DNA of 30,253 nt from a virus. The stretch is taken from IMG/VR virus record IMGVR_UViG_3300032516_000121, positions 1 through 30,253 of that record; one strand, written 5' to 3'. Each line of letters begins with the position of its first letter. Within the stretch, counting starts at the first letter, position 1. This document shows, in pieces, positions 1,649 to 25,014 of the stretch. The position numbers were made by a program, and so were the translations under genes. The notes under the pieces were generated by a model, which was not told where the DNA came from, did no database searches, and saw only the letters and a list, made by a program, of their open reading frames with translations.

Positions 1649-1861
1649 ATGTCTCAACGCTACCCGCCTGAAAACGGACCTCGACTCGCCCGTACTACAT
1701 GGTACGTGGATGACGTCACAGGCCGACTCGTTCCGCGTCACAGAGCGGTCCGCGACTACTACGGACGTGTGGTCGATTGCAACGACCTCGATGAACTTGG
1801 TCGAGATGAACTGAACGTCGGCTATCCGCTGCGCATCGAACAGCAGCCACAGGACCCGTAG
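1649..1861 (+). CDS. Small hypothetical late protein
   Basis: This is a 70-residue ORF in a tight late operon: 7 bases after the previous stop and 3 bases before the next start. It is rich in Arg, Asp and Tyr, with a central TWYVDDVTGRLV strand-turn-strand pattern and an acidic DLDELGRDEL segment near residue 50. It has no membrane segment and no recognised family. Being placed just ahead of the adaptor-like gene it may be a small virion or assembly factor, but that is inference from position. Confidence 0.55.
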   Translation: MSQRYPPENGPRLARTTWYVDDVTGRLVPRHRAVRDYYGRVVDCNDLDELGRDELNVGYPLRIEQQPQDP

Positions 1862-1864
1862 CGC

Positions 1865-2596
1865 ATGGCGTTGACCAAAGCCGATTTGCGCACGTTGACG
1901 AAACAACTCATGGGCAACCGCACGTCCGTGACCATCACGGACGCTTGGTACGATGCCCGTGTGTATTCGGCTTATCGTCGTCTATGCACCTTTCAAGGCA
2001 ACGTGACGGCGCCAAGTTTGAAACAGCCAACGCTGCGTCGCCTTGGCTTCTTCGAGCTTCAAGATCGACAAGCGCGCTCGATTGGCGTCGCCCCCGTTAC
2101 GCCTGTCATCACGTCGAACTTCATCACGCCAAATCCTTCAACCAACGTCTGTGTCGTCACCGACATTTTTGACCGCACGCATGATCGTGGTCTCGACCGC
2201 CGCAGCTTGCGCGAACTGCGCACGCGCAATCCGGACGCAACGGGCATTCCGCGAACATGGTGCCCTGTTGGCCAGGGTGGCGTCGTTGGCTACTACGTCA
2301 ACCAGATCCCGGCCGTTGTCGCCGACAACATTGACGTCTACGAGTGGCTTTACCGCTACCCAGTTGCTCTCGCAACGGACAGCGACGCTCCTGTCATTCC
2401 CGATCCTTGGCATATCGCTATCGTCTATGCCGCTGGCAGCGAGGCGGCAATGTTCCTCGACATGCCTGAAAAGCACACCGAGCTTGAAGGCAAGTTCCTT
2501 GGCTACATTGCCGAGCGCAAATCACCGATCGAAGAGGCGGCGCACAGCGGGCTTGCCGGTGCGCGGCGCTTCACTCCGATCGGCCAGAGGTTCTAA
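1865..2596 (+). CDS. Head-to-tail adaptor-like protein
   Basis: A 243-residue protein. The N-terminal region (1-50) is helical, with a TITDAWYDARVYSAYRRL segment, typical of short-tail-phage adaptor or head-completion proteins that sit under the portal. The centre is variable, and the C-terminal third (about 175-225) has the family-like pattern IPDPWHIAIVYAAGSEAAMF followed by an amphipathic helix of about 25 residues. P22 gp4 and T7 gp11-type adaptors are similar in size and helical ends. Its stop overlaps the next start by one base (TAATG at 2594-2598), so translation is coupled to the fibre gene. The portal gene is not in the window, so the assignment rests on pattern and order. Confidence 0.6.
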   Translation: MALTKADLRTLTKQLMGNRTSVTITDAWYDARVYSAYRRLCTFQGNVTAPSLKQPTLRRLGFFELQDRQARSIGVAPVTPVITSNFITPNPSTNVCVVTDIFDRTHDRGLDRRSLRELRTRNPDATGIPRTWCPVGQGGVVGYYVNQIPAVVADNIDVYEWLYRYPVALATDSDAPVIPDPWHIAIVYAAGSEAAMFLDMPEKHTELEGKFLGYIAERKSPIEEAAHSGLAGARRFTPIGQRF

Positions 2597-3504
2597 TGGC
2601 AGTTGTAACGGTCACGTGGGATTCATCCGTCCCTGTCGGTAGCGAGGACATCAAGACCGGCGATAATCGTATCGTTGAACTCAAGGGGGGTCTTGTCCAG
2701 CGGCTTCGCAACGGCGGCCACCGCATGCCAACGATCGCCTCGGCCGACGCAAGCGAGGGATTCCACTGTTGCGGCGAGATGTACGCGGCTGACACCGGAC
2801 ACACGACGGCTGCGCTTGCAGGTGAGTTTTACCTCTTTGCCGCTGACGGCGTGACCGTTGTCGCCACGCTTCGGGATTCGACCGCAGCGACACCGAGCGA
2901 ATTGTTTCTCGGCGCCAACAAGTTGCGAACAACGGGGAACGTCACAGCCGCCACTGGGACGTTCAGCGGCGCCGTCGCGACAGGTGCGCTTACCGCGACG
3001 GGCCACATCAAGCCGACGACCGATGATCTCTATGATCTTGGCGACTTGACGCATCGTATTAAGAACGCGTGGTTCAGCGGAACGGTGAAGTTTGACGGCG
3101 CGGTTCAGCATGCGGCGAACGAGGTATTTTCAGCGGGGATTCAGGTAGGCGGTAACGGGACATCGCCACAGATTCTTGACATCGTTACAAGTCAGTACAC
3201 GGCTTGGCAAGATGTTACAACCGGAACGAACGCCCTGTCCATACTGGCGCGTATGGTTTTGGGCAAATTGGTAGCCACGACGACGGTTACATTGCCCGCC
3301 GCCGCGGTATCTACCGGGAGAGAAGTCACGATTGCTCATGTCAGTGGCGCGTTCGGCCTCATCATTGACCCTAATGCGTCGGAACTCATCAACGGCGCGG
3401 CTACTCTTACTCTCGACGCCAGCGCTGGTAAGGCGCGCGCCGTTCACATTCTCTGTGACGGTACTGGATGGGTCATCGTAGGCACCTACACCGTTGGAAC
3501 TTAA
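2596..3504 (+). CDS. Tail fibre or spike-type structural protein
   Basis: This 302-residue protein begins inside the preceding stop (TAATG). The N-terminus (1-80) is a compact domain containing two adjacent Cys (HCCGE, near 57-61). From about 115 to 165 there is a repetitive fibre shaft (GNVTAATGTFSGAVATG) leading into a DLYDLGDLTHRIKNAWF motif, which recurs in many trimeric phage fibres just before surface modules. The C-terminal half is Thr/Ala/Val-rich beta structure with a final glycine-rich strand. It is followed after 3 bases by the larger fibre. Likely part of the receptor-binding apparatus; no enzymatic residues are seen. Confidence 0.7.
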   Translation: MAVVTVTWDSSVPVGSEDIKTGDNRIVELKGGLVQRLRNGGHRMPTIASADASEGFHCCGEMYAADTGHTTAALAGEFYLFAADGVTVVATLRDSTAATPSELFLGANKLRTTGNVTAATGTFSGAVATGALTATGHIKPTTDDLYDLGDLTHRIKNAWFSGTVKFDGAVQHAANEVFSAGIQVGGNGTSPQILDIVTSQYTAWQDVTTGTNALSILARMVLGKLVATTTVTLPAAAVSTGREVTIAHVSGAFGLIIDPNASELINGAATLTLDASAGKARAVHILCDGTGWVIVGTYTVGT

Positions 3505-3507
3505 ACT

Positions 3508-6243
3508 GTGGCCATTCGCGAGATCGCCTCGACTGTTCCCGGCACGTTGTCCCTTCGTGGGTTCGCCAAGGATTCGCAACAACTAGCCGTTCACCTTGAA
3601 TCCGCGCTCGCCCCTGTGTTGCGCGCCGTTTCCCTCGCCGCCGATTGGATCGAACAGCGCCAGGTTGCCATTGCCTTTGCGCAATCCCCGTTCACGATCA
3701 CTGACGAGACTGTGATCTTGGCTAACGCGACGAGTGGAGTCGTCGCCGTCCTACTCCCTGCGTCGTCAACTGAAACGATCAATCGTGATCTCTACATCAA
3801 GAAGACGGATACGACCGTGAATTCCGTAACGATCACGGCGCATGGCAGCGACTTGATCGACACTACGTCGACCGTTTCGATTACAACTGAAGGTCAGTGC
3901 TACCACCTATTGTCCGACGGACTCGGTAACTGGCGTGTTTTGTCGACGATTGCCGCATCTGGTGGCGGCGGCCTTGCTATTCCGGCGACGGCGGCGCCGA
4001 TCATCGTCAACCTGACACCCGCCGCCGTTGGCACGTCAGTTAAGTACGCACGTGAGGATCATCGTCACCTGTTTGACGTAACGATCGATCCAACGGGAGC
4101 AAATGCCTGGACCGGAATTCACGCGTGGTCGCCTGACAGCAATGCCGTGCCCATTACGATCAATACAACGGCAAGTCTCACGTCGGCAAACATGCAAACG
4201 TGGAGCCCACTGGGAAGCCTAGATACAGTCGTCGATCGGTTAGGCAACGTCGGTGCCGGGGACGAAACTCCAACGGCCAATGTGTCGATTCGACAACGCG
4301 CCGTCGATATTTCTCAATCGGCAATCCTCGCTTTGAATCCGTACGCCTGGTGGTACCCTGGCGATGTCGATGGGAATAACACCAACAATGCCGCTTATTC
4401 AGATGGAGCGTCCATCGCGACCTGGACCGACAAGTCTGGAAATGGTCATAACCTGGCCAAAGACTCAGTCGTTACCAACACACTTCACAAGACAGGCGGT
4501 CCCAACAATAAGGCATGGATGAATAGTGAGGGCTGGCTCGCTTGGTCGGGATCGGCCTTTGGCAATAATCATTCATGGGCCTGGTTCTCTGTAGGACGGT
4601 TCAACCAATACACCGTCAAGGCAGTCACACCAGACCAATCAGGGATTCTTGCTTTGGGTGGTGTCTTTACCAACTGTCACCTCTTCACGGGATATCCTGA
4701 AGCATCTGGAACTCACGAATACACGTTCGCCAAAAATGCCACATCGACACCTGGAGATCCCCCGCCAACCTCTTGGTCAAGCACGGGCATTGGTGACGTG
4801 TACTCGCATTGCCATACTTACGTCGGAACAACCGCAGGAACACATACCGCCTACTGCATGGGCGTTGAGTTAACAAATAATCGGGCAGGATACCCTCGTC
4901 TTTTCGGGGCCGACGATCTCAGGGGGACTACGAATTGGGGACGCCTGCATAGAACCGGCGGAAGTCCTGACGCTTTTGCAACTCACGCTGACGTCGAGAT
5001 CATCGTATTCGACAGAGAAATAACGAACGATGAGCGTCTTCTCGTTGAAGCCTATTTGTCCAGTCAGTACGATTCCGCATACGTTGCTTCCGCCTCGGCG
5101 CAGCCGCTAACCGATTGGAAAACCTTCACGGGTTCCGTTGATTCCATCGTTGATTTGTCACTCAACTTTGGTCTCGGTACCGCCGCGACGACCCCCGCCG
5201 CCAAGCTGCACGTCGTCAAGACGACTGAGCAACTTCGCCTCGGTTACGATGCGACAACGAACTACTTCCAGACGACCGTAGGCAGCGCGGGTGGCGTGAC
5301 ATTCGATACCCACGGCGCGACACCACAGTTCACCTTTGCCGATCCCGTCAACATCACCGGCCTCCTCGCCGTCACGGGCGCGATCACCGCGACCACGACG
5401 ATTGCGGCCACCGGGACTATTTCTGGGAGCAACCTCAGCGTAAATGGGGTTCCTGTGGACCGCGTGGACAACGCCGGATCGATCCCTGGTTCCTGCGTAT
5501 TCGGAACGTCGCCAGATCTCCTCGACGACAACACCGGAGACCTGTGGACGTGTACGGCTGGCAACGTCTACGGGCTGTCAGGTTTTGGAAATCGAATGAC
5601 CTTGGCTACCGGGTATGGTCAAACCGGACACTTCCCCTACCTGTCCACTTTCGGGCCGGGGTTCACATACATCGACGGAATCCTGTATACAGATGAAATA
5701 GACAAGATTCACGGATGGGCGCACGAACTGGAATCGACTCGCGGATCGCAGTTGGTCCTTATGTACTCAGCATCCTCGAACGGATTGCTTGAGGTGAACA
5801 ATAGTTCAACCGCGTGGAATACCTACACCGCCAAGAACTTTTCCGTTGCTCCTGGTCTCATCAACGCGCACACGTTCGACGCTTCATTCAACAGTCAGCC
5901 GGATTCCGGGTCGTCATACTTTCGCGTAAGGGATAGCTCGCTTCGCCAACGACTCTGGTTAGGGAAGGCGTCTTCATCCGCAGCAGACGTCCAGTTCCGA
6001 GTCGGATTCGACGCGACGAATTACCTGCAAATCAGTTTAGGAACCGCCGCAGCACAAAACGCGGTCTACTCAGTCGTCGGAGGTGGTCGACACCAGTTCA
6101 CCGGAGCGATCACTGGGTCAACCACGATCGCCGCAACTGGCGCGGTAACCGGATCGAACCTTAGCGGGGTCAATACAGGGGACGATCCTCTTTCAGCCGG
6201 AGGCTCCACGCTTCCACTTGTGTTCTGTATGATGGGAGCCTAA
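3508..6243 (+). CDS. Large tail fibre with LamG/concanavalin-like domain
   Basis: A 911-residue protein starting at GTG 3508, with GGAAC about 9 bases upstream. Residues 1-170 are beta-rich and end in a GGGG hinge. Near 176-187 is an AREDHRHLF motif seen in many phage fibres. Residues about 272-522 look like a LamG/concanavalin-type sandwich: they begin with LNPYAWWYPGD, contain a WTDKSGNGHN turn and end with the helix VFDREITNDERLLVEAYL. Two related modules follow (576-644 and 830-886), and the C-terminus carries SGVNTGDDPL, a common fibre hinge. It probably binds a host-surface glycan. Base composition of the LamG stretch is visibly less GC-rich than the later virion genes. Confidence 0.8.
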   Translation: MAIREIASTVPGTLSLRGFAKDSQQLAVHLESALAPVLRAVSLAADWIEQRQVAIAFAQSPFTITDETVILANATSGVVAVLLPASSTETINRDLYIKKTDTTVNSVTITAHGSDLIDTTSTVSITTEGQCYHLLSDGLGNWRVLSTIAASGGGGLAIPATAAPIIVNLTPAAVGTSVKYAREDHRHLFDVTIDPTGANAWTGIHAWSPDSNAVPITINTTASLTSANMQTWSPLGSLDTVVDRLGNVGAGDETPTANVSIRQRAVDISQSAILALNPYAWWYPGDVDGNNTNNAAYSDGASIATWTDKSGNGHNLAKDSVVTNTLHKTGGPNNKAWMNSEGWLAWSGSAFGNNHSWAWFSVGRFNQYTVKAVTPDQSGILALGGVFTNCHLFTGYPEASGTHEYTFAKNATSTPGDPPPTSWSSTGIGDVYSHCHTYVGTTAGTHTAYCMGVELTNNRAGYPRLFGADDLRGTTNWGRLHRTGGSPDAFATHADVEIIVFDREITNDERLLVEAYLSSQYDSAYVASASAQPLTDWKTFTGSVDSIVDLSLNFGLGTAATTPAAKLHVVKTTEQLRLGYDATTNYFQTTVGSAGGVTFDTHGATPQFTFADPVNITGLLAVTGAITATTTIAATGTISGSNLSVNGVPVDRVDNAGSIPGSCVFGTSPDLLDDNTGDLWTCTAGNVYGLSGFGNRMTLATGYGQTGHFPYLSTFGPGFTYIDGILYTDEIDKIHGWAHELESTRGSQLVLMYSASSNGLLEVNNSSTAWNTYTAKNFSVAPGLINAHTFDASFNSQPDSGSSYFRVRDSSLRQRLWLGKASSSAADVQFRVGFDATNYLQISLGTAAAQNAVYSVVGGGRHQFTGAITGSTTIAATGAVTGSNLSGVNTGDDPLSAGGSTLPLVFCMMGA
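5233..5439 (+). repeat. Fibre module, copy 1 (residues 576-644)
   Basis: The encoded segment starts RLGYDATTNYFQ and ends TTIAATGTISGSNLS. The same order of motifs returns at 5995-6165, as RVGFDATNYLQ and then TTIAATGAVTGSNLS. The two copies are diverged at DNA level but alike as protein, which suggests an old internal duplication or repeated import of a fibre shaft unit. Confidence 0.65.
5995..6165 (+). repeat. Fibre module, copy 2 (residues 830-886)
   Basis: Second copy of the module at 5233-5439. It is about 12 residues shorter in the middle and leads directly into the SGVNTGD hinge near the C-terminus. Confidence 0.65.
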
Positions 6244-13192: not shown

Positions 13193-16100
13193 ATGGCGCT
13201 CGGTCCGTTTCTCGACCCGAAGACAGGCAAGCCCGACGACACCGAGGCTTCTTTTCTCGATTGGTACGGTGGGCACGCGATTCGTCTCGGCATAGACCCC
13301 AATCCCGATGCGCCCGCACATCATTACGACTTTCGCAACGCATTTCTCAATGGCTACGAACCGAACGACGACGGCACATGGGACTACCGCGCGTCCGAAG
13401 CCTTCGCCCGCACAGCCGGTAAGCGCAACGTCATCCGCGCCAACGTGCGGGGCGCCGCGAGCGGCGACACGGAAGCCGATACGCTAACCCGCACGTCCAT
13501 GGCGGAACCGCCGACCTCGTCAACGTCCACCGCGCCCGTTGAACTCACCGACGCCATGCGCGAAGAGGTAACGAAACGCCTCGCCGGAATCGAGTCGAGT
13601 CTTGCCACGTACAACGAGGCGATCGACTCGTATACCAAAGGCTACATCTCGCCCGAAGAGGCACAGAACTACCTCTATTTGAGCAAAGGCACCGAAGACT
13701 ACGCCAACAAGCTCGTCAACCACGGACGCACCTTTCTCAAAGGTCTCACGATCGGTGAAGGACAAATCGCCAATTTCTACCACGCCGGTTTCATGCCCGC
13801 CGTTTCTCGCGCACTGAACTTGGGCCTAGCCGAAACCGGCCTTGGCGCCGCACGCCTTCTCGGCCAAGGCGCGGCGGCGATGATGCCCGGCGTCCCCGGC
13901 GTCCCGACGCCCGGTCAAATCGACACCCGCGTTGCCGACCTCCGCGACAAGATCGAGACCGAATTCTTTGGCCTTCCGTTCGACCCGATTGAGCGCGCCG
14001 GGTATAACGCAGCCTTCCCCTGGTACGGCCATGAACTCGGCAACCTAGCCGCCTGGACCGCCACGATCATGGCGCCCGGTCTTGCCGTTGGCCAGGCAGG
14101 CATGGCCATCAACGCGGGCCGTCACATGACCGGCGCGGCCGGGATGGCGAACGGCATGACCCGTTGGCTTTCCGCCGCACGTGGCGCCCGTGGCCTCGCC
14201 ACGACGAGTGCCGTCGGCGCCGTCGGCGGCGCGCTCATTGCAGCCGGAACCGCGCCCGACGACATTGACGGTCAGCGCATTCTCGAAGGTGCGATGATCG
14301 GTCTCGGCGGGACGGCCATGCTCTCGACCTTCCTTGCCGGGCGTCCGATCGGCAACATGGCGCGGTTGCTTAAGATTCAAGCCATGGCCGAAACGCTTGG
14401 CGCGGAAGGCGTCGGCGGCGCCCTTCGTGTCGCACCGCGCATGACCTTTGGGCGCATGGCCGCAGCTGGTCTCGAAGGCGCCGGATACTCGACACTCAAA
14501 GCCATGGGCGAAGGACAACCGATCGACAAATCGATCGCCTCGGGTGTCGAAGAGGGCATCGCCTTCGCCGGTTACGACACCGCATTCCTTGGCCTCGGTC
14601 GCATGGCGAAGTGGCTGCCGATTCACGCACGCATTAGCGAAACGTGGGCCAAGACGGCGCAGTCCCTCAAGCTCCCCGCCCGCATGGCCGCCGCATCCGG
14701 TGACATGGCGAACACGGTGCTTCAAGCCGTTCCCGGCATTCTCGCCGGTGGCGCACTCGGCCCCGCCGGTGCCGCTCTCGGTGGCACGATCAGTGCGAAG
14801 ATGGCACTCAATCTTCAACGTGATCTCGTTCACACCGCCGCGCGCCTACGTAACGTCGGTGTCCCTGCGGAGATCGTCAACCACCTCCTCACCGGAAGCT
14901 GGCACAAGCTATCGGCGGAACAAGCTGAAATCGTCACCAAAGCCCTTGTCAAAGATGTCGTCGAGCGCGCGACCGCCGAGGCCGATCCCATTCTCAAATA
15001 CGCGATCAATGAATCCCTTGGCAGCACCGCAATCCTCGACAACACCGAACTCAAGGCAATCACCTACGAACGTGCCCGCGTGATGCAAGCCGTTGCGACG
15101 ATGAAATCACAAGGCATCCTCGAAATCGATCCGAAGATGATCCAAGCAACGCGCCGCATTGCCGAACTCAGCGAGCGCCGTTCGCAAATTCTCATCGACG
15201 AGGCGAATGCGTTGGGCATTGGCCAAGCTCCGTCAACCCACAGTGGCATCATGGGCCGGGTCTCGGACAAGGTTGTCTCTGCGCAGGTGCGGGATATCAT
15301 CGAGTCCGCAGGGGAGAATCGCGGTTTCTTTGTCGAGACAACCGTTGCACGCAAGCGGGGCAAACCCGCCACGTTTCGTTCGGTCATTCCTCGTCTCGAT
15401 CCCAACGCCGGGTCTGCGCTCGAACGTCTCCATGCCAGTATCCGCGCAGCGTCAGGTGAGACAGCCGGTCTAGCCCGTGGCGCCGCTTCCGCACCACCCA
15501 CTCGCGTTCTCTTCGCCACCAACAGTACCTTGCTTCGCGACCTCGCCGACGCCGGGCTGGAGCGCCAAGGCATCGACGCCATGATGTCTCCCGAAGGCGC
15601 CCGCGCGCTCGATCGCATCATTGCCCGGCCCGGTGATCTATCGCCCAACGCCACAGAGACCCTTCTTGCGTCACGTAAAAGGCTCACCGCGCCTGTGATC
15701 GAAGGTGTCAACGTCGGCCGTGAGACGCCACCTTCGCAAATCACGGGCACATTGCAGCGGCAACTCCCCGGCCGCGCCGTCGCCCCGGCGGGCGCCAAAG
15801 GTCTCAAGCGACCCTTCACCGACTTCGACTTCGGCGACACCAGTGGCCGTGTCGGTGGCCAAGCCGTTCGCTCCCTGGCAGGCGCGGGCCTTGGTGGCAC
15901 CATTGGCGCGGCGGCCGACCCCGAACATCCTTGGCGTGGTGCGGCCCTTGGCGCGCTCGCCGGTGGTCTTGGTGTCGGTGCGGCAGAGGACCTTCTTCGC
16001 ACCTCCGCACGCATGCGCAGCGACATCGGTGCAATGCGCACGAACATTGACGTCGGCATTTCCTCTCGCAACGCACGTCTTGCCCGTGAAATCGAGACCG

Positions 16101-19100
16101 GAAAGCGATCAGCATTCACCGCATTCGACAAGGCGACTACCGAAGCGCGCGCCACCGTGCGGATTAATCCCGAACCACTCATTGCGCTCGCCGAAAAGCA
16201 ACTCGCCCGCTCAAGCCCGACGAACGAAGTCGCGCGGGCCAGTTTCCGTCGCGCGCACAAAGCCTTTTGGGACGACATCCACGCCGCCATGACCGCGCGC
16301 AGGGTCGCACCTGACGACATCGACGCTTTGTTCATCGACAACCCACGCCTCGCCGATCTGCGTGACCGTGTTGCCGCGCTCGACAGCGAATTCGCCAAAG
16401 GCACAACGGCCGTCGAGACCAAAGCAGCCGGTTACGTCTTCACGCCCGCCGGTGAGATCGCCCGCCCCGGCCAGCCGCCGATTCGTTACTGGACCTCCAA
16501 CAAACCTATGCCCATCACCGGCGACAAAGGTCGCGTCACCGACGACATGATCCGTTTGAACGGTCTCGAACCGCCGCCGATTCGCAGCGGAGAGACCGGC
16601 GCCGCCCGCCTTGGCATTCTTGGCCCGGTCGCAGCGGGCGGCATTGGCGCGGTCGTTGCACCCGCCATTGCGCGCCGTCTCGGCCTGCTCGACGAGGAGG
16701 ACAGCGTCCTCACCGCGTCGGCCATGGGCTTCCTTGTCGGCGCGGGTCTCGGTTATAAGATGCTTGCGCGTGACGGCGCGATGTTGAATGCCGAAGCCAC
16801 GCGTGTCGCACGCTTTATCCAGCCAACTGTCGAAGGTCAACTTGCCCCGGCCGAGACCGCGCGCCTCGTCGGCAAATCCGGTGACGCCTTCCGCACGACG
16901 CTCAACGGTTCTCAGGTCAGTGGCCGCCGTCTCTACTGGCTTCTCCCGCAGGATCAACAGGTCACGCACACCGTTGAGAACATGCGCGCCTGGCCACAGC
17001 GCACCGTCGATGCCAAGGGTAACGGGATCGACCTTCCCGAACGTCGCGCCAGTTTCGAGCGGGACCTCAAGCGATTCGCCCCGTTCACCGTGACCGATGC
17101 CGATTGGTCCCGCGTTACCGACACGTTTATGACCTCTACCAAGGCACTCGGCTACACCCCGGCCGAATCCATGCGTCTTTACAAGGGCTGGCTCGGTTGG
17201 ATGACGACCCCGCTCGCGAGCCGTGCGCGTACCAACATCGAAAAGATGTCACTCAAGGTTCTCGGCAACGATGCCAAGAATCCCTTCACCACCGCAGCCG
17301 GGATCGATGAACTCCGTGCGCGCACATTGACAGCCGACGTCATTACCGGCCCGTCCATGCCGCTCCCGCGCAATTACCAACGTGCGGCGAACACGCTCAA
17401 CAAGGACGGCACGCCCGCTGCCAGCCGCATTCGCGCGCTCGTTGAAGACATCGAATCGAACCCGCCGTCAACTGCCGAAGGCACGGCCGAGACGGTCATG
17501 CCCTGGTGGAGCTTCGCGGGCGCCCGCTCCGTTGCCCCGTCCGTCCGCTTCTATCGCTATGCCGATCGTTTGATTGCCGGTGGCGACAAGGTCGTTGGTC
17601 AACGCATTCACGACGTCACACAAGGGATCTTCGAGGCAACCGAATTGGCGCGGGGCAGCGACGACAAGGATCGTCAAATCCTTGCGACCATCTTCCAAGG
17701 AATCTCCTCGCCGCAGGACATGAACCTCGTCGGACAAGCGGTCGAGAATCGCATCTTCCGCGAATCGCTCAAGGGCACCAACGCCCGTGTCTACGAAGCC
17801 GCGCTTGGTGTCCGCAAGTTCCTCAAAGAGCGTGCCGACGCACTCGGTCTCCCCGAATTCGAGCGCATCGACGACTATCTCCCGTGGGTCTACAACTACC
17901 GCACCAAACGGGAACTCAAGGAACTCGCAGAGAAGGGCGTGACACCGAACGACGTCAACTATCCGGCCGACGCACCTGTACCGCATCACGTTTTCTTCAA
18001 CCATCTCGAATCCCGCACAGCCGACGCGCCGCTTGGCAAGCTGATGTCCCCTTACGAATCTCTCCTCATGTACTCCCACGGGGCGAATCGTAAAATCTAC
18101 ATGGATCAACTCCTCGCGAACTTCACGCCGGAGACGTTCCAAAGCATCCGCGCCTCGCAACCGTGGATCGCACATGACCTTGGCCGCTGGCTTCTCGACG
18201 TCGTCGGCATTCCCGGTCCCGGTACGATGTACGTGCAAAAGAAGGTCGAGTCGATGGGGCTGTTTCTCGAAAAGTACCCCATGTTCCAGCGTGAAGGCTT
18301 GGCGCAAGAGATCAATGAACGCTACTTCCTCTCGCCATCTGGCGCGAACAATCTTTCCCGCTTGGCGACCGGCTACGCCTACACATCGAAGATCGCTTGG
18401 AACTATCTATCCGCCGTGACCAACTTGTCACAACAGATCATCAACGGGGGCACTGAATACGGAATCATCAATGTCTTGACCTCTTCCGTCATTGGCGCAG
18501 GGGTCGCTGGCGGCGAGCGCGTGCCCGCATTGGCGCCGATCCTTGACGCCGTCACACCGCGCTCGGCTGAGTACCGCAAGCTCCTCGTCGAAAATGGCAT
18601 CTTGAGAGAAACATCGCAACGACACTTCGATGCGCTCGCGCTCTACGAGGCGAACTTCGGCACGAACCGCGCGCACCTTGCGCTTGTTGGCATTCCTGTC
18701 GGCGCCGCAGCCGGTGCCGCCTCCACCGCCATACTCAATAGTGACCGATCAAACGAAGATCAGCTTTCGATCGCGACCGGCGCCGCTCTTGGGGCCGGTC
18801 TTGCCACCTTCGGTGCCGCGAAATCCGCCATCATGCGCCGCGCGCTCATGCGTGTCCGCGACGTTGGCACCTTCACATTCAACCTCGCCGAAACGTGGAA
18901 CCGCGCATCGGTCGGCATCGCCAGCGTCCGTCAAGCCAGGGCAACCGAACGTGCGCTCGCGTCCCCGGCCTATGCGGCAACGCAACGCGCACGGGAAGTC
19001 GTCGAAGGCGTCTTCACCGGCGCGCTCGGTGGCGCCGCTGCCGGGAACCTCCTTGGCGGTTCGGATCAGGTCATCCCCGGCGCGCTTCTTGGGGCCGCTG

Positions 19101-19900
19101 CTGCTGCCGGTGCCGCACCCTTTGGCGAATCCCGTACCGCGCGCACCGCGCGCACACTCGAAACGATCCGCTCAAGCAATGTGATTTTCGAGAACCGCAT
19201 CGTGCGCGACCAGGCGAAGGACGGCCTCCGCAAGCTCACAGACGACGAAGTTCACGGCCTCTACGCACAGATGCAAACCGACATCACACAGTTCCGCATC
19301 GCCAAGGAAGGCCGGGGCTACATCCTGAACACGCCACATGGGCAAGCGTTGGGCGCGTTGCAAAGTTACACCCTCAACCAAGCTGAATTCGTTGGCGGCC
19401 GCCTTCAGTCCTTCATTGAAACCGCAAACCGCGCAATCAACGGCCAGCCCGCGCAGATCGACTTCCGTGTCTTCCGCTTCGCCAGCTATCTTCTCGGAGT
19501 CGGTTCCGTCTACGGGGCGATCCTTGGTGGCAGCGCGGACAGCGAGTCCGATCCCGACTATTGGGTATCGCGTCTCGGCTTCGGCGTGATGCCCTTGCTC
19601 TTGTGGAACGACCGCGCGCGCAAGTGGGAGATGAAGCCGCCGTCCGATCTATTCCGTGGCCCGCTCATCGGCGACATCACGCGCACCGCCAACTCGTATC
19701 TCGAACTCATTCAAAATGAGGAAGCCAACGCATCCTTCCTCGACACCACCGACTCGCTCGTCATCAACCTTTTCCCTGGCGCCAAGAACATCATCAAGCA
19801 GACGCAGCAGCAACAGGGCACGGGTGCGCTCAAGCTGTTCAGCGAAGGCGCGGCCGAGTCGATGGGCCAGCCGCAACCGCAGTCGCGCGGGCCGCGTTAG
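13193..19900 (+). CDS. Giant putative ejection/internal virion protein (2235 aa)
   Basis: By far the largest gene of the window. The N-terminus (1-80) has a compact FLDWYGGHAIRLG / HHYDFRNAFLNGYEP module that recurs in large phage proteins. The body alternates helical stretches with Gly/Ala-rich hydrophobic hairpins, near residues 340-383, 515-541, 893-936, 1140-1195, 1830-1882 and 1938-1978, most of them two segments joined by a short charged loop. Around 1558-1645 is a polar region with RIDDYLPWVYNYRT and PHHVFFNHLESR; near 1718-1770 an NYLSAVTNLSQQIING segment typical of internal virion proteins. I see no transglycosylase catalytic Glu motif and no polymerase motifs. It likely crosses or lines the cell envelope during DNA ejection. 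Start ATG 13193 lacks a clear ribosome site. Confidence 0.65.
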   Translation: MALGPFLDPKTGKPDDTEASFLDWYGGHAIRLGIDPNPDAPAHHYDFRNAFLNGYEPNDDGTWDYRASEAFARTAGKRNVIRANVRGAASGDTEADTLTRTSMAEPPTSSTSTAPVELTDAMREEVTKRLAGIESSLATYNEAIDSYTKGYISPEEAQNYLYLSKGTEDYANKLVNHGRTFLKGLTIGEGQIANFYHAGFMPAVSRALNLGLAETGLGAARLLGQGAAAMMPGVPGVPTPGQIDTRVADLRDKIETEFFGLPFDPIERAGYNAAFPWYGHELGNLAAWTATIMAPGLAVGQAGMAINAGRHMTGAAGMANGMTRWLSAARGARGLATTSAVGAVGGALIAAGTAPDDIDGQRILEGAMIGLGGTAMLSTFLAGRPIGNMARLLKIQAMAETLGAEGVGGALRVAPRMTFGRMAAAGLEGAGYSTLKAMGEGQPIDKSIASGVEEGIAFAGYDTAFLGLGRMAKWLPIHARISETWAKTAQSLKLPARMAAASGDMANTVLQAVPGILAGGALGPAGAALGGTISAKMALNLQRDLVHTAARLRNVGVPAEIVNHLLTGSWHKLSAEQAEIVTKALVKDVVERATAEADPILKYAINESLGSTAILDNTELKAITYERARVMQAVATMKSQGILEIDPKMIQATRRIAELSERRSQILIDEANALGIGQAPSTHSGIMGRVSDKVVSAQVRDIIESAGENRGFFVETTVARKRGKPATFRSVIPRLDPNAGSALERLHASIRAASGETAGLARGAASAPPTRVLFATNSTLLRDLADAGLERQGIDAMMSPEGARALDRIIARPGDLSPNATETLLASRKRLTAPVIEGVNVGRETPPSQITGTLQRQLPGRAVAPAGAKGLKRPFTDFDFGDTSGRVGGQAVRSLAGAGLGGTIGAAADPEHPWRGAALGALAGGLGVGAAEDLLRTSARMRSDIGAMRTNIDVGISSRNARLAREIETGKRSAFTAFDKATTEARATVRINPEPLIALAEKQLARSSPTNEVARASFRRAHKAFWDDIHAAMTARRVAPDDIDALFIDNPRLADLRDRVAALDSEFAKGTTAVETKAAGYVFTPAGEIARPGQPPIRYWTSNKPMPITGDKGRVTDDMIRLNGLEPPPIRSGETGAARLGILGPVAAGGIGAVVAPAIARRLGLLDEEDSVLTASAMGFLVGAGLGYKMLARDGAMLNAEATRVARFIQPTVEGQLAPAETARLVGKSGDAFRTTLNGSQVSGRRLYWLLPQDQQVTHTVENMRAWPQRTVDAKGNGIDLPERRASFERDLKRFAPFTVTDADWSRVTDTFMTSTKALGYTPAESMRLYKGWLGWMTTPLASRARTNIEKMSLKVLGNDAKNPFTTAAGIDELRARTLTADVITGPSMPLPRNYQRAANTLNKDGTPAASRIRALVEDIESNPPSTAEGTAETVMPWWSFAGARSVAPSVRFYRYADRLIAGGDKVVGQRIHDVTQGIFEATELARGSDDKDRQILATIFQGISSPQDMNLVGQAVENRIFRESLKGTNARVYEAALGVRKFLKERADALGLPEFERIDDYLPWVYNYRTKRELKELAEKGVTPNDVNYPADAPVPHHVFFNHLESRTADAPLGKLMSPYESLLMYSHGANRKIYMDQLLANFTPETFQSIRASQPWIAHDLGRWLLDVVGIPGPGTMYVQKKVESMGLFLEKYPMFQREGLAQEINERYFLSPSGANNLSRLATGYAYTSKIAWNYLSAVTNLSQQIINGGTEYGIINVLTSSVIGAGVAGGERVPALAPILDAVTPRSAEYRKLLVENGILRETSQRHFDALALYEANFGTNRAHLALVGIPVGAAAGAASTAILNSDRSNEDQLSIATGAALGAGLATFGAAKSAIMRRALMRVRDVGTFTFNLAETWNRASVGIASVRQARATERALASPAYAATQRAREVVEGVFTGALGGAAAGNLLGGSDQVIPGALLGAAAAAGAAPFGESRTARTARTLETIRSSNVIFENRIVRDQAKDGLRKLTDDEVHGLYAQMQTDITQFRIAKEGRGYILNTPHGQALGALQSYTLNQAEFVGGRLQSFIETANRAINGQPAQIDFRVFRFASYLLGVGSVYGAILGGSADSESDPDYWVSRLGFGVMPLLLWNDRARKWEMKPPSDLFRGPLIGDITRTANSYLELIQNEEANASFLDTTDSLVINLFPGAKNIIKQTQQQQGTGALKLFSEGAAESMGQPQPQSRGPR

Positions 19901-19904
19901 TCCA

Positions 19905-21356
19905 CTATTTCTTCGCGTTGAAATCCACAACGCGCAGGACCAATCCTACAGTCGGGTCCGTTGTTGTATCCTGCATCAGTACCCGCGCAAGCAACAATGT
20001 CTTGACGCCTTCCTGAATGTTGCGCGACTGATACCGATTCTTCAGCCCACGCACCAGGCTCGATAGTGTCGAAAGCCCACCTTTGCGTTCGATGTACGAC
20101 AGCACGGCCTCAGTCACCGCGCCTTCGGTACTCGCTCCTAGCGCGTGGTAAACCGACATCACCCCTGTGTCCATCCAATCGATCAACCGCGTCGCCCGTT
20201 TCAACCAATCGACATGCAGCGCGTCCCGAGGGCCACCGTCAACGATCTGCCACACAACAGCAATCTTGATCGCGTGCGGCAGCTTTCTCGACAGCCACGC
20301 AGCGAATAGCTCGTCCAATTCCATTCGTTCTTGCCGTGTCACCTTGTTCGTATACCACTCGTCCATGTGCGTGGCGGCGGCTTTGCTCAATTCCATCGTT
20401 GGCGGCAGGTCAGCGATGCGCGTGCCAAGCGTCACCGCCAACGACGTCCGCAGCGCGGCGTCGAATCTCGGATTCGCCTTGTCATGGCGCTTCTCACGCG
20501 CCGTGAAGATCAAGTGTCTTGGCATGTAACCGGCTTTGATTAAGTTATCCGGTATCTCCCGCAGCCAGGTCATGTTACTCGCCCCGGCGAAACAGACATA
20601 CGGCGCAAGAAGCTCGTAAGTATCCTCTCCCTTGAGCGCGCGAGACCAAACCGGCGACATGTTGTCGTACCAATCAGTCAGCCACTCGCCAAGCGCAGCC
20701 TTGTATTGCTCCCGCCCGACAAGCACCGTCAACTCACTTGCGACGATCAGCCCGTCGCTCGTCGTTGTTACCTCGAAATTGCGCCGACGCAACGCGCCTG
20801 CGTACCCCTGTGGCGACCCCTCATTCGGCAGCACGTTCAGTTGCGATGGCTTGTTTCCCACCTTGGGAAATGCCTGCACCGCAAGCTCCCGCGCCTTGGC
20901 GAGCGCCGTCGATTTGCGTGTTCCGGTTGGCCCGACAAGTAGCGTGTAGATATTCGGATAAAGTGGCGCGGCGTCCCAACCGATCAGCGGCTTGCGTCCG
21001 AATGCTCCACTCGCGCAGGTCATCATCGCGCCAAAGTGAAACTGCGCAGGGGCTTCGCTTTCCTGTGTGTATCCTAGATAATCCTTGAACCAGCCATCCT
21101 CGATCAACGGAGTAAACGTATCGACGATCGCGTTGACCTCGCCCATGTCCCGCAATTCGTCAGGAACATCGAGACCAAACTTAGTTCGTATCGACGCCGC
21201 AATAAGTTCCCACTCACCGTTGCGATACGCCGGGCGCACGATCTTTGCAAGCTCGATGACCTTGTCCCGCAACGCAGCAGGCGACTCAGGCGTAGCGTCG
21301 GCGAGAAGCAATTCCAGACCCGCACATGCAGCGCGAAGATCGCTCGCAATGGGCAC
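19905..21356 (-). CDS. DUF3987/RepA-like ATPase, probable replicative helicase
   Basis: A 483-residue protein starting at GTG 21356, with GAGGT 5 bases upstream. It has a clear P-loop GPTGTRKST (142-150), a Walker-B-like strand LIVASELTVLVG (203-214) with the acidic Glu at 208, an ASN sensor near 259-261 and an Arg-finger-like GYMPRHLIF (277-285). These match the DUF3987/RepA-type ATPases used as phage replicative helicases or primase-associated helicases. The N-terminal 80 residues and the C-terminal winged-helix-like region (about 415-460) flank the motor. It is the last gene of the replication operon and ends 4 bases from the convergent giant gene. No primase domain is attached. Confidence 0.7.
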   Translation of the reverse strand: MPIASDLRAACAGLELLLADATPESPAALRDKVIELAKIVRPAYRNGEWELIAASIRTKFGLDVPDELRDMGEVNAIVDTFTPLIEDGWFKDYLGYTQESEAPAQFHFGAMMTCASGAFGRKPLIGWDAAPLYPNIYTLLVGPTGTRKSTALAKARELAVQAFPKVGNKPSQLNVLPNEGSPQGYAGALRRRNFEVTTTSDGLIVASELTVLVGREQYKAALGEWLTDWYDNMSPVWSRALKGEDTYELLAPYVCFAGASNMTWLREIPDNLIKAGYMPRHLIFTAREKRHDKANPRFDAALRTSLAVTLGTRIADLPPTMELSKAAATHMDEWYTNKVTRQERMELDELFAAWLSRKLPHAIKIAVVWQIVDGGPRDALHVDWLKRATRLIDWMDTGVMSVYHALGASTEGAVTEAVLSYIERKGGLSTLSSLVRGLKNRYQSRNIQEGVKTLLLARVLMQDTTTDPTVGLVLRVVDFNAKK

Positions 21357-21757: not shown

Positions 21758-21935
21758 CCTTTTTGTCAAGCCGCCCGTTGGCATACGCGATCTCCCGTTC
21801 CCGCGATACGCAATCGTCGCATGTCACGTTCTCTCCCCGGTCGATCGCGCGGGTGCAGCTAGCGCATGTGCATACACCCCCGTCGTCCCACTTATCGCCA
21901 GTGCGCAAGGGGCGCCATCGTGAATGGTTTGGCAC
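21735..21935 (-). CDS. Small Cys-rich (zinc-ribbon-like) protein
   Basis: A 66-residue ORF starting at ATG 21935, 44 bases inside the end of the polymerase C-terminal gene. Five Cys occur as CTCASC (22-27) and CDDC (39-42), a spacing compatible with one zinc-binding knuckle. The C-terminal 20 residues are a charged, mostly acidic tail (KKDGEDDGE). The long overlap with the polymerase gene and the metal motif argue for a real, translationally coupled product. Role unknown. Confidence 0.5.
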   Translation of the reverse strand: MPNHSRWRPLRTGDKWDDGGVCTCASCTRAIDRGENVTCDDCVSREREIAYANGRLDKKDGEDDGE

Positions 21936-22899
21936 TTTTCAACTCCGTTAGCCCAAGACGATTACTGTAGGGATTGAATTTACCAAGGTTGAACCCGACC
22001 ATCCCCTCAGCCGGGGCGCGCCAGCCGTCAAGCTCGGGCCAAGGTTGTTCCATTGTCCACAACAACCAGGCCGTGATCTCGTTGCTGCGTTCATACGGGC
22101 ATTCCAGGTAAAACGAATCGTAAGTTCCCGTGGCAACGAATATCTCAGCAGGGCGAAACATGACGCCCCAACTCGCGGTGGGATAATACCGCAAGATGCC
22201 TTCGGGAGACGGCCAAGATTCATCCGTTATCGGGTCATATCCATGCAGCCGCGCCAGCGTGATGTTCCACATGGTAGCGCCACAGGATTGCGGATGTTGA
22301 CTCGTCAATGCATTCGCCCCGTTGCGACGCCGTCCTTCGTACAAACGCCGACGACCGAATACGGTTCGCTCGACTCGCGACGGTAACTGTCCGTATCCCG
22401 CGAACCGTAATGGAATCGGCACGCCCACCGAGCGCGTGCAATCGGCACAGTCTCCGTCATCTTCAGCGGTTGCCGCACAACGCGGGCATCGAAAGACGGG
22501 CATCCCAAAGACACGGTCAGCCAATTCCTTGCGCCAAGCGGCGACACGTTCGTACTTCTTTGCCAGCTTTCCGAATGCCTCTGCCATGAACGCTTCAGGT
22601 AACCAAAACGTACGCGCACCTTGTCGCGGCCCGGCGCCGTAGTTCCACATATGGCTAACCCGCTTGCCTGCCTCATACGCCGGACGCATCCGACCTTTGA
22701 GATTCACAAGATGCGTCTTGGCATCTGCGGGATCAATGCCGTAGATCAGGGCGGCGTTTCTAGCGTGCACTTTCGTGCCGCCAGCCACTTGTTCCTGTAG
22801 CTCGGCCAGCAACACGGGGTCCTTGGCATGAATCGCGGTCAGCCACGACTCGACGGCGATCCAGTCGGCGCCGACGAAGACGCGAGGATCATTTGTCAT
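21892..22899 (-). CDS. Family A DNA polymerase, C-terminal (palm/fingers) half
   Basis: 335 residues from ATG 22899, chosen over GTG 22905 because GGAAAG is correctly spaced only for the ATG. It carries the catalytic part of a family A polymerase: motif A VFVGADWIAVES (7-18, Asp12 and Glu17), the O-helix KRVSHMWNYGAG (79-90), the late-helix Gln region (HPQSCGATMWN, near 202-212) and motif C TGTYDSFYLE (257-266, Asp261). Between motifs B and C lies an inserted CPRC...CADC loop (Cys 138, 141, 151, 154). Exonuclease and thumb are missing; they are encoded by the separate gene at 23137-25014. Odd: in my alignment the O-helix Lys is His83, the motif C His is Tyr260 and the motif C Glu is Ser262. 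Confidence 0.8.
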   Translation of the reverse strand: MTNDPRVFVGADWIAVESWLTAIHAKDPVLLAELQEQVAGGTKVHARNAALIYGIDPADAKTHLVNLKGRMRPAYEAGKRVSHMWNYGAGPRQGARTFWLPEAFMAEAFGKLAKKYERVAAWRKELADRVFGMPVFRCPRCAATAEDDGDCADCTRSVGVPIPLRFAGYGQLPSRVERTVFGRRRLYEGRRRNGANALTSQHPQSCGATMWNITLARLHGYDPITDESWPSPEGILRYYPTASWGVMFRPAEIFVATGTYDSFYLECPYERSNEITAWLLWTMEQPWPELDGWRAPAEGMVGFNLGKFNPYSNRLGLTELKSAKPFTMAPLAHWR

Positions 22900-23038
22900 G
22901 TTCACTTTCCATCAGGCGCTCTAGTCTCTTGATGCTCTCTGCCAGGAGTAAAGTAATCAACTCCTCTTCGCGTTGATGTAGCTTTTGAAGCTCCAACATC
23001 ATGCGTATTCCTTCGGCGGCGGCTACGCGATCACTCAT
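22889..23038 (-). CDS. 49-residue coiled-coil mini-protein between polymerase halves
   Basis: ATG 23038 to TGA 22889 encodes 49 residues. It overlaps the upstream Cys-rich ORF by 8 bases and the polymerase C-terminal gene by 11. Almost the whole length is a charged amphipathic helix (MMLELQKLHQREEELITLLL, then SIKRLERLMESEHDK) with leucine spacing typical of a dimeric coiled coil. One possibility is that it helps assemble the two polymerase halves; this is a guess from position and helix character. No family is recognised. Confidence 0.5.
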   Translation of the reverse strand: MSDRVAAAEGIRMMLELQKLHQREEELITLLLAESIKRLERLMESEHDK

Positions 23039-23174
23039 TGTCATCCTGCGTCGGAACCTCAACGCACGCCGGGTGCTTGCTGCACCCCTCGCACAGGCCG
23101 CAGTCGCGACAAACGTGCTTGTAGTCGCAACAACTGCTACATATCGCCAGCTTCCGATTCTTCGTCGTTGTCAT
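23031..23174 (-). CDS. 47-residue Cys-rich mini-protein between polymerase halves
   Basis: ATG 23174 has a good ribosome site (GGAGA, 7 bases upstream) lying inside the end of the polymerase N-terminal gene, and the ORF overlaps that gene by 38 bases. Eight Cys in 47 residues (12, 15, 16, 22, 25, 28, 31, 37) are spaced CxxCC-x5-CxxCxxCxxC-x5-C, which suggests binding of one or two zinc ions. The tail is acidic (PTQDDNE). The C-terminal tail of the polymerase half is encoded by the same DNA in another frame. Confidence 0.5.
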   Translation of the reverse strand: MTTTKNRKLAICSSCCDYKHVCRDCGLCEGCSKHPACVEVPTQDDNE

Positions 23175-25014
23175 AATCAATCTCCGTTGTGATCGAATTC
23201 GCATTGACCGTAAACGAACGCGAGTGCGGAACATAGATAGCCCGTGTTTCCTCTGGAATGTTGAGCGCATTGTAGGCATAAGGATTGACTTGACGATCAC
23301 CGAGATCGCTGTCAGGCCCGCCCGCCATGCGCCCGGTGCCGGTGCCGAACGGACGATACTCAGGATGCGCCACTCCCTGCGCGTCGATCGCGTTTGATGG
23401 CGCGTAAGTCTTGACGTTCCACAGCAGGAATGTGTTCGTCATCTTCATTGCGTGCTGATATTCCTTCACGCCCGCGAGTACCGATTTGATGACATCATTT
23501 CCTTGCACCTGTTTGAGCGCGAGTAGCCGTGCAATCGCATCCGTATCTGCGGTGACACGCCCGTCCTTCTTTTGCGACGGCAACTTGAATCCGTCCTTGT
23601 CATACAACAACCATCGCAAGTGATCGTTATTTCCAAGATCGAATCCCTGCGTCCAACGTGCGATCACGACATGGCAGCGGTCGCGCTCTTTCCGTAACGC
23701 AGTAACACGCGCGTCAACAACAGGGTCGCGGTCCTTCTTCAACCGTGGCAGCGTGATGCCTTCTAGCTCCACCGCTACTTCGCTCAAACGCCGTTCATGC
23801 GGAACACGCCGCTTGGCGAATATCTCCGCAACATGCCGTGTCACCTCGTCTTTGATTCGATTGCACGTTTCTCCGTTATCGACAACGGCCTTACGCTGCG
23901 CCGTCGGGCAAACGGCCAGCCCGCGCGCCTCCATGGCCATTGCCAACACCCCAACATGCCGGGCCTCGCGCATATAGACGTGCCACAGATCAGCGTCGGT
24001 CATCCGTTTCGACAACTCACGAAAGATTCGCCACGTCGCGACAACGTCCAGTGCGTTATACGCCGGATCGTCATGTGCCATGCCTTTCCACTCGCGCCAA
24101 TGGTCCTGCAAATGCAACGTCACGCGCGCCAAACCGACGGGTAGATCAGGGTACAACGTCGCGTACATCATCAACGTGTCGAAGATCGGTGGCCGTACCG
24201 TTATCCCAAGCGTCATCAACGCCTGGACATCAGCAGGCGCATGATGAAATACCTTCGTCACGTTCTCGTCATCCAGCATCCGACGCAACTCGCGAATCGT
24301 GTCGTCCACAGGAACGACACTCGTCACATGCTCCCCGTCACACGAAATCCCGATCAGAAACGGACGCTTGGTTACACGGTCATATTCCGTGTCGATCGCC
24401 ACGGGCCAGCCGCGATCGAGTGCCAGGTTATGCACCGCTTCCACGCTGGCATCCGTGTAGCCCCACTCTTGAGACGGCATCATTCGCTGCGGTTCATAAA
24501 CGAGCGCGCCCGTCGCGTAGCGCACAGCACGTTCCGTCGCGCAGCGCACCGACGTCCAGCCCGCCTCGATTTTCGATCGCATAACTGCGGCGGGATGTAT
24601 CGACGCCACGCACGGCACACGTTGGCCACCAATCTCGATCTCCGTCACCTCACCATGATGATCGGTAATCTTGGTCTTACCGGATATGCGCCAAAGAGCG
24701 GCACGTCCGTAGAGAACAACGGCCCGGTGCGAACCGCGCAGTAGCGTCGCCTCTATCGATGTCCAGTGTTGCCGCACCATTGCCTGCATCGCGGCCGGGG
24801 TCTTGGGCAACGTCGCCATTTCGATCGGAATAACGTTGGCGTAACGCACTTGCCGCTCGGGATCAAGCCCGGCGTCCTTGATGAACTCACGAACACGGCG
24901 TCCGGTCGCGCCGACGAACGGTCGGCCGAGTCGGCCTTCGTCCTTCCCGCCTGCCTCGCCGATGACGAGAAGCGGGGCGTCGTAGGGGCCGAAGTCGGGG
25001 ACGGAGCGGTTCAT
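23137..25014 (-). CDS. UDG-like + DEDDy exonuclease + family A polymerase N-terminal half
   Basis: A 625-residue fusion. Residues about 10-170 are a family 4/5-like uracil-DNA glycosylase domain: GEAGGKDEGRLGRPFVG (19-35) and SIHPAAVMR (138-146), but without the four Cys of the iron-sulphur family 4 enzymes. Residues about 200-345 are a 3'-5' proofreading exonuclease: AIDTEYD (206-212), HHAPAD (257-262) and YNALD (319-323), i.e. Asp208, Glu210, Asp262, Tyr319, Asp323. Residues about 350-600 are the thumb and start of the palm, with FGTGTGRM (555-562) and NIPEETRAIYVP (585-596). The protein stops just before motif A, with an acidic tail (DYDNDEESEAGDM). The rest of the polymerase is at 21892-22899. 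Confidence 0.85.
   Translation of the reverse strand: MNRSVPDFGPYDAPLLVIGEAGGKDEGRLGRPFVGATGRRVREFIKDAGLDPERQVRYANVIPIEMATLPKTPAAMQAMVRQHWTSIEATLLRGSHRAVVLYGRAALWRISGKTKITDHHGEVTEIEIGGQRVPCVASIHPAAVMRSKIEAGWTSVRCATERAVRYATGALVYEPQRMMPSQEWGYTDASVEAVHNLALDRGWPVAIDTEYDRVTKRPFLIGISCDGEHVTSVVPVDDTIRELRRMLDDENVTKVFHHAPADVQALMTLGITVRPPIFDTLMMYATLYPDLPVGLARVTLHLQDHWREWKGMAHDDPAYNALDVVATWRIFRELSKRMTDADLWHVYMREARHVGVLAMAMEARGLAVCPTAQRKAVVDNGETCNRIKDEVTRHVAEIFAKRRVPHERRLSEVAVELEGITLPRLKKDRDPVVDARVTALRKERDRCHVVIARWTQGFDLGNNDHLRWLLYDKDGFKLPSQKKDGRVTADTDAIARLLALKQVQGNDVIKSVLAGVKEYQHAMKMTNTFLLWNVKTYAPSNAIDAQGVAHPEYRPFGTGTGRMAGGPDSDLGDRQVNPYAYNALNIPEETRAIYVPHSRSFTVNANSITTEIDYDNDEESEAGDM

Follow-up and report, generated by a model that had tools for sequence, protein, structure and literature searches.

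We propose that the family A DNA polymerase of this virus (a uracil-DNA glycosylase-exonuclease-polymerase, or UDG-exo-PolA, protein) is encoded by two neighbouring genes that arose by gene fission and are probably translationally coupled. We hold this view with considerable confidence. The two genes, P0001 and P0002, are on the minus strand of the window, by which we mean the whole 30,253-nt stretch of DNA that was analysed, and the coding sequence is interrupted just ahead of the motif A strand. Two results go beyond the initial annotation of this locus: among related phages this polymerase has been split repeatedly, and a phage from another lineage, MEP401, has its break at the identical position.

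Table 1. Features at and near the split polymerase (positions in the window).
Feature	Position	Strand	Evidence
P0001, polymerase N-half, 625 aa: UDG-like domain, 3'-5' exonuclease, thumb, start of palm, 25-aa acidic tail	23137..25014	-	Pfam, PHROG 17, family profile, exonuclease residues, model
Tail of the N-half after VPHSRS, FTVNANSITTEIDYDNDEESEAGDM; shares 38 nt with the 47-aa ORF	23137..23211	-	translation; pLDDT <50
P0004, Cys-rich 47-aa ORF within the break	23031..23174	-	open frame, start/stop overlaps, high third-position GC
P0003, Leu/Glu-rich, probably helical 49-aa ORF within the break	22889..23038	-	open frame, AGGA 5' of the ATG, overlaps, codon-position GC
P0002, polymerase C-half, 335 aa: motif A, fingers, motif B, CxxC..CxxC insertion, motif C	21892..22899	-	PHROG 17, invariant residues, model
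DUF3987 primase-like gene after the polymerase, here and in relatives	19905..21356	-	Pfam DUF3987 (E 2.4e-10), PHROG 14296 DNA primase (E 3.6e-23)

Four minus-strand ORFs form a chain (N-half, 47-aa ORF, 49-aa ORF, and C-half) in which each end overlaps the next start. The second and third overlaps, between the 47-mer and the 49-mer and between the 49-mer and the C-half, are 8 nt and 11 nt. Exactly 237 bases separate the stop codon of P0001 from the ATG of P0002, and there is also an in-frame GTG for P0002 at 22905. These ORF positions agree with the coordinates in the initial annotation, both for the halves and for a 237-base gap with a 47-mer and a 49-mer. Its view that this is not a simple frameshift also stands, as the gap holds ORFs with start/stop overlaps.

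Several comparisons indicate that the halves make up one polymerase. Both match the DNA polymerase family PHROG 17 (2.7e-30 and 1.4e-8), and these matches follow one another along the profile. A second profile, built from 60 continuous relatives, matches P0001 and then P0002, in order (the E-values from this profile are for three sequences only). The halves are collinear with continuous relatives and no core residues are missing. Together with the structural match to KlenTaq described below, this supports the earlier claim of two separately translated halves of a single polymerase. The usual Pfam model for this polymerase overlooks the locus, which is a warning for annotation: PF00476 had no matches anywhere in the record at E 0.001, and P0002 scored 13.5 bits against a gathering score of 34.3.

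P0001 opens with a uracil-DNA glycosylase domain like those of family 4 (Pfam UDG, E 7.6e-14; NCBIfam UDG_fam4, E 8e-15, yet under the family's cut-off). The exonuclease, thumb, and palm start that had been described for the N-half are present, but this fused domain had been missed. The exonuclease domain follows it (Pfam DNA_pol_A_exo1, E 5.2e-11) and retains the residues of DnaQ/DEDD-type exonucleases (D208 and E210 in Exo I, D262 in Exo II, and Y319 and D323 in Exo III). The structure predicted for P0001 (pLDDT 74) resembles known structures of both UDG and Pol I. In the thumb, about 60 extra residues (about 397-456; window 23640-23820) are skipped by the family profile. P0001 does not stop after VPHSRS, as had been stated: another 25 residues follow, and they are acidic and unstructured in the model. 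Part of this tail, FTVNANSITTEID, can be placed in a gap-free register with motif A strands, with Asn at the position of the catalytic Asp, and has V.A[N/D].I..E in common with the real motif A downstream. We considered whether the tail is a relic of a duplicated motif A strand, but the statistical support is weak (p about 0.01 for the fixed register, 0.14 for any register, and 0.46 for the family profile). There is also no similarity at the DNA level, and the model gives the tail no structure, so we do not claim this.

P0002 begins with motif A, as the initial annotation had it. In an alignment of 32 rows, D12 of motif A, H83 and Y87 of motif B, and D261 of motif C are invariant, and K79 is nearly so. 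The rows were chosen because motif C aligned in them (a larger C-half alignment misplaced it), so the conservation seen in that column depends on how the rows were selected. Motif C of P0002 is YDS, with Tyr replacing the His of HDS/HDE. The best PDB matches of the P0002 model (pLDDT 74) are KlenTaq and Klenow (Foldseek E 1.6e-9). Between the fingers and motif C, at about residues 136-161 (window 22416-22493), there is a zinc-ribbon-like CxxC..CxxC insertion, FRCPRCAATAEDDGDCADCTRSVG, that is missing from the aligned relatives.

We collected relatives by tblastn with the Mel-JY34 polymerase, by two scans of viral contigs for similarity to the C-half (with at most 80 from each), and from phage records. 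The tblastn search turned up relatives with a continuous gene as well as three with a split one. The initial annotation had suggested a check for continuous polymerases: among the 116 distinct loci listed, 82 are continuous, 33 are split, and in one only the C-half was seen. Because the loci were taken by C-half similarity and were limited to 80 per scan, the share of split loci should not be read as a population frequency. Ordered splits are also found in the genomes of the isolates VS-ABTNL-3 and Kuura. In ten split records, the only matches to PF00476 are the two halves.

The breaks favor a few places. Among the loci listed, 26 breaks, plus that of L024, are in the loop between LQNIP and LPNIRKLFVPDP (about 550|563 in the profile), and the window's break is about 15-25 residues downstream of this usual site. 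Five more are in the exonuclease before ExoIII (L026, L062, L079, L089, and Kuura), one is at the border of the exonuclease and thumb (ctLwi270), and one is before motif C (L080). In L124, the polymerase is in three pieces (1838-5213), with the second break at the UDG/exonuclease border. A tree of the relatives requires 18 changes between split and continuous, of which at least nine are forced by well-supported branches, and the exonuclease site requires five separate changes; the tree was made by a quick method, and the window's own position in it is unreliable. If breaks were spread evenly along the profile, the chance that four of nine would fall within the 13 columns of the loop is, by a rough calculation, about 8e-6. 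The open literature that we covered (most subscription journals were outside its scope) has no description of recurrent fission sites. Fission may need little change, judging from the sequences of continuous loops, some of which already hold ribosome-site-like strings or in-frame starts: the loop could be parsed in 37 continuous relatives, and of these 22 have a ribosome-site-like string and 8 have an in-frame start at a suitable spacing (no chance rate was computed for either count).

What lies between the halves varies greatly across the relatives. In eight loop splits, the gap is -4 to 0 nt, and most of these have ribosome-site-like sequence within the "KGD/E" codons of the upstream gene. 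Another 17 loop splits have gaps of 43-1817 nt, and the gap in L081 is 2 nt (a script chose the start codons, so any one gap length may be inexact). Across all break sites, mechanical calling found 35 gap ORFs in 18 loci. They include HNH endonucleases in L017 and L166 (by Pfam) and in L161 (35% identity to L017), methyltransferases in L037 and L061, and an NrdR-like zinc ribbon in L166; many others are small and unmatched. The break in L138 (3132-4963) holds five ORFs, one of them a DnaQ-type exonuclease and another a weak Mom-like ORF. One close pair is L161 and L169, whose DNA is about 87-90% identical: a 146-aa HNH-like ORF is exactly between the halves in L161 alone. That junction is occupied in L161 (4526-4966) and empty in L169 (4070), and the same upstream ribosome-site sequence serves the HNH-like ORF. 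Similar-looking pairs are L060 (gapless) versus L065 and L073 (an ORF of 63-65 aa) and L054 (gapless) versus L061 (four ORFs).

In the window, we take the 47- and 49-aa ORFs to be real genes because of their overlaps, the AGGA upstream of the 49-mer's ATG, and their codon-position GC. Neither has detectable relatives in Pfam, in PHROG, or in homology searches that included the comparable breaks of relatives. As gap content elsewhere is varied or absent, the two ORFs are most likely passenger genes that arrived in an already split junction. Alternatively, the mini-proteins could be working subunits that aid assembly of the polymerase or act on DNA, which develops a suggestion in the initial annotation. 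They are probably made in step with the halves, as they overlap and belong to the same gene chain, and one is Cys-rich while the other is probably helical. However, they lack relatives at comparable breaks, and other splits hold unrelated genes or none, so we think that working subunits are unlikely. A broader proposal would make a fixed loop of phage replicative PolA both a recurrent fission point and a docking site for genes: the coding sequence of the loop could give a ribosome site, a stop beside a start would yield two subunits, mobile nucleases and cargo genes would then settle between them, and the 47-mer and 49-mer would be cargo that is now part of a multi-chain polymerase. We give this proposal little credence.

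Three further explanations concern the break itself. A small self-splicing intron or an intein could interrupt one gene and restore a single chain, and phage polymerase genes commonly carry group I introns; the authors who described MEP401 suggested an intron for its split (PMC10580990). We consider this highly unlikely for the window. There was no Rfam match over 21892-25014 at E up to 5, nor at gathering scores in 11 split relatives, and the Pfam scan of the four ORFs found no intein (Hint) family. Furthermore, the window's insert is occupied by overlapping ORFs, and an intron would have no room in those split relatives whose gaps are -4 to 0 nt. The small intron that had been offered as an alternative is thus disfavored, and intron readings of other split phage polymerases need to be rechecked. 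A ribosomal frameshift or hop between ORFs, yielding some full-length polymerase, would need just a shift at the stop codon in relatives with overlaps of 1 or 4 nt. Translational bypass does occur, as in gene 60 of T4, but about 330 nt containing whole ORFs lie between the homologous ends here, and up to 1.8 kb in some relatives, so we regard this as extremely unlikely. Finally, the window is a single metagenomic record without read data, and metagenomic contigs can contain errors. The break might then come from faulty sequencing or assembly, or the gene might be a decayed pseudogene; indeed, single in-frame stops make the breaks of some relatives (L049 and L080). But both halves are fully open and keep their catalytic residues, the starts and stops at the junction overlap in order, and other members of the lineage, the two isolates among them, also have ordered splits, as does MEP401. 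An error or a pseudogene is therefore very unlikely.

If the polymerase is a product of gene fission, as we propose, then one transcript would yield both chains by successive re-initiation at the overlapping ORF ends. The chains would fold onto each other to form one active site, with the N-half supplying the exonuclease, thumb, and base of the palm, and the C-half supplying the catalytic palm and the fingers. We infer the assembly and activity of such a two-chain enzyme by analogy to the split polymerases of T4-like phages (see below). The mini-genes would have entered the already split junction as passengers; such a junction would tolerate insertion because both of its flanks are gene ends. 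Counting against gene fission are the divergence of the window's polymerase, its shifted break, the lack of a close relative to show that the window's split is conserved, and the tail of the N-half. Given the splits in relatives, what looked like a one-off oddity becomes a repeated natural experiment, in which an enzyme has been cut many times at a few preferred places. Close pairs of split and unsplit loci, or of empty and occupied junctions, let one ask how an essential enzyme made as one chain turns into a complex, and they bear on why phages tolerate gene insertion inside a polymerase.

By gene content, the window groups with the UDG-PolA/DUF3987 phages. The polymerase is followed by the DUF3987 primase-like gene and then by a 2235-aa ORF on the opposite strand (13193-19900, +), in the place where relatives have a giant opposite-strand gene. 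This ORF has no match in PHROG or NCBIfam and none in Pfam over its first 1669 aa. Upstream of the polymerase are a Sak4-like gene and a gene with a weak match to a CRISPR/Cas-associated nuclease-type PHROG. Much of this layout is common to Mel-JY34, ctMlz233, VS-ABTNL-3, Kuura, ctLwi270, vir526, PaP2, and others. The window's polymerase has diverged strongly from its relatives, with identities of about 20-25%, and we found no close relatives when we compared P0001 and P0002 to viral contigs and P0002 to genome contigs. A DNA pattern for motif B (HMWNYG) gave 13 stretches, none of them related to the polymerase.

Split replicative polymerases have been described in other phages. In the T4-like Aeromonas phages 25 and 44RR, gp43 is split into 43A and 43B; the gap holds a homing endonuclease in one phage and untranslated sequence alone in another, and in phage 25 the 43A and 43B proteins co-purify and are active as a polymerase (PMC2988022). 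As in the window, a phage's replicative polymerase is in two genes, but gp43 belongs to family B and these phages are unrelated, so the likeness is in the way of working only. A split DNA polymerase was also reported for the OM43 phages MEP401 and MEP402 (Zobellviridae) and their metagenomic relatives (PMC10580990). MEP401 resembles the window in that two genes encode its family A polymerase, a small ORF separates them, and the break falls directly before motif A: by direct comparison of gp13/gp14/gp15, its N-half ends with ...IKTLFLSRYGE and its C-half starts with MILNADAKALEW. Unlike in the window, the N-half has 387 aa and begins near the exonuclease, with no UDG domain in the translation; the gap has one 77-aa ORF instead of two mini-ORFs; and MEP401 is from a different phage lineage. 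The UDG-exo-PolA phages of the Mel-JY34/VS-ABTNL-3/Kuura type, along with their IMG/VR relatives, share the window's domain order and its DUF3987 primase-like neighbour, and their usual break, in the LQNIP loop, comes about 15-25 residues before the window's.
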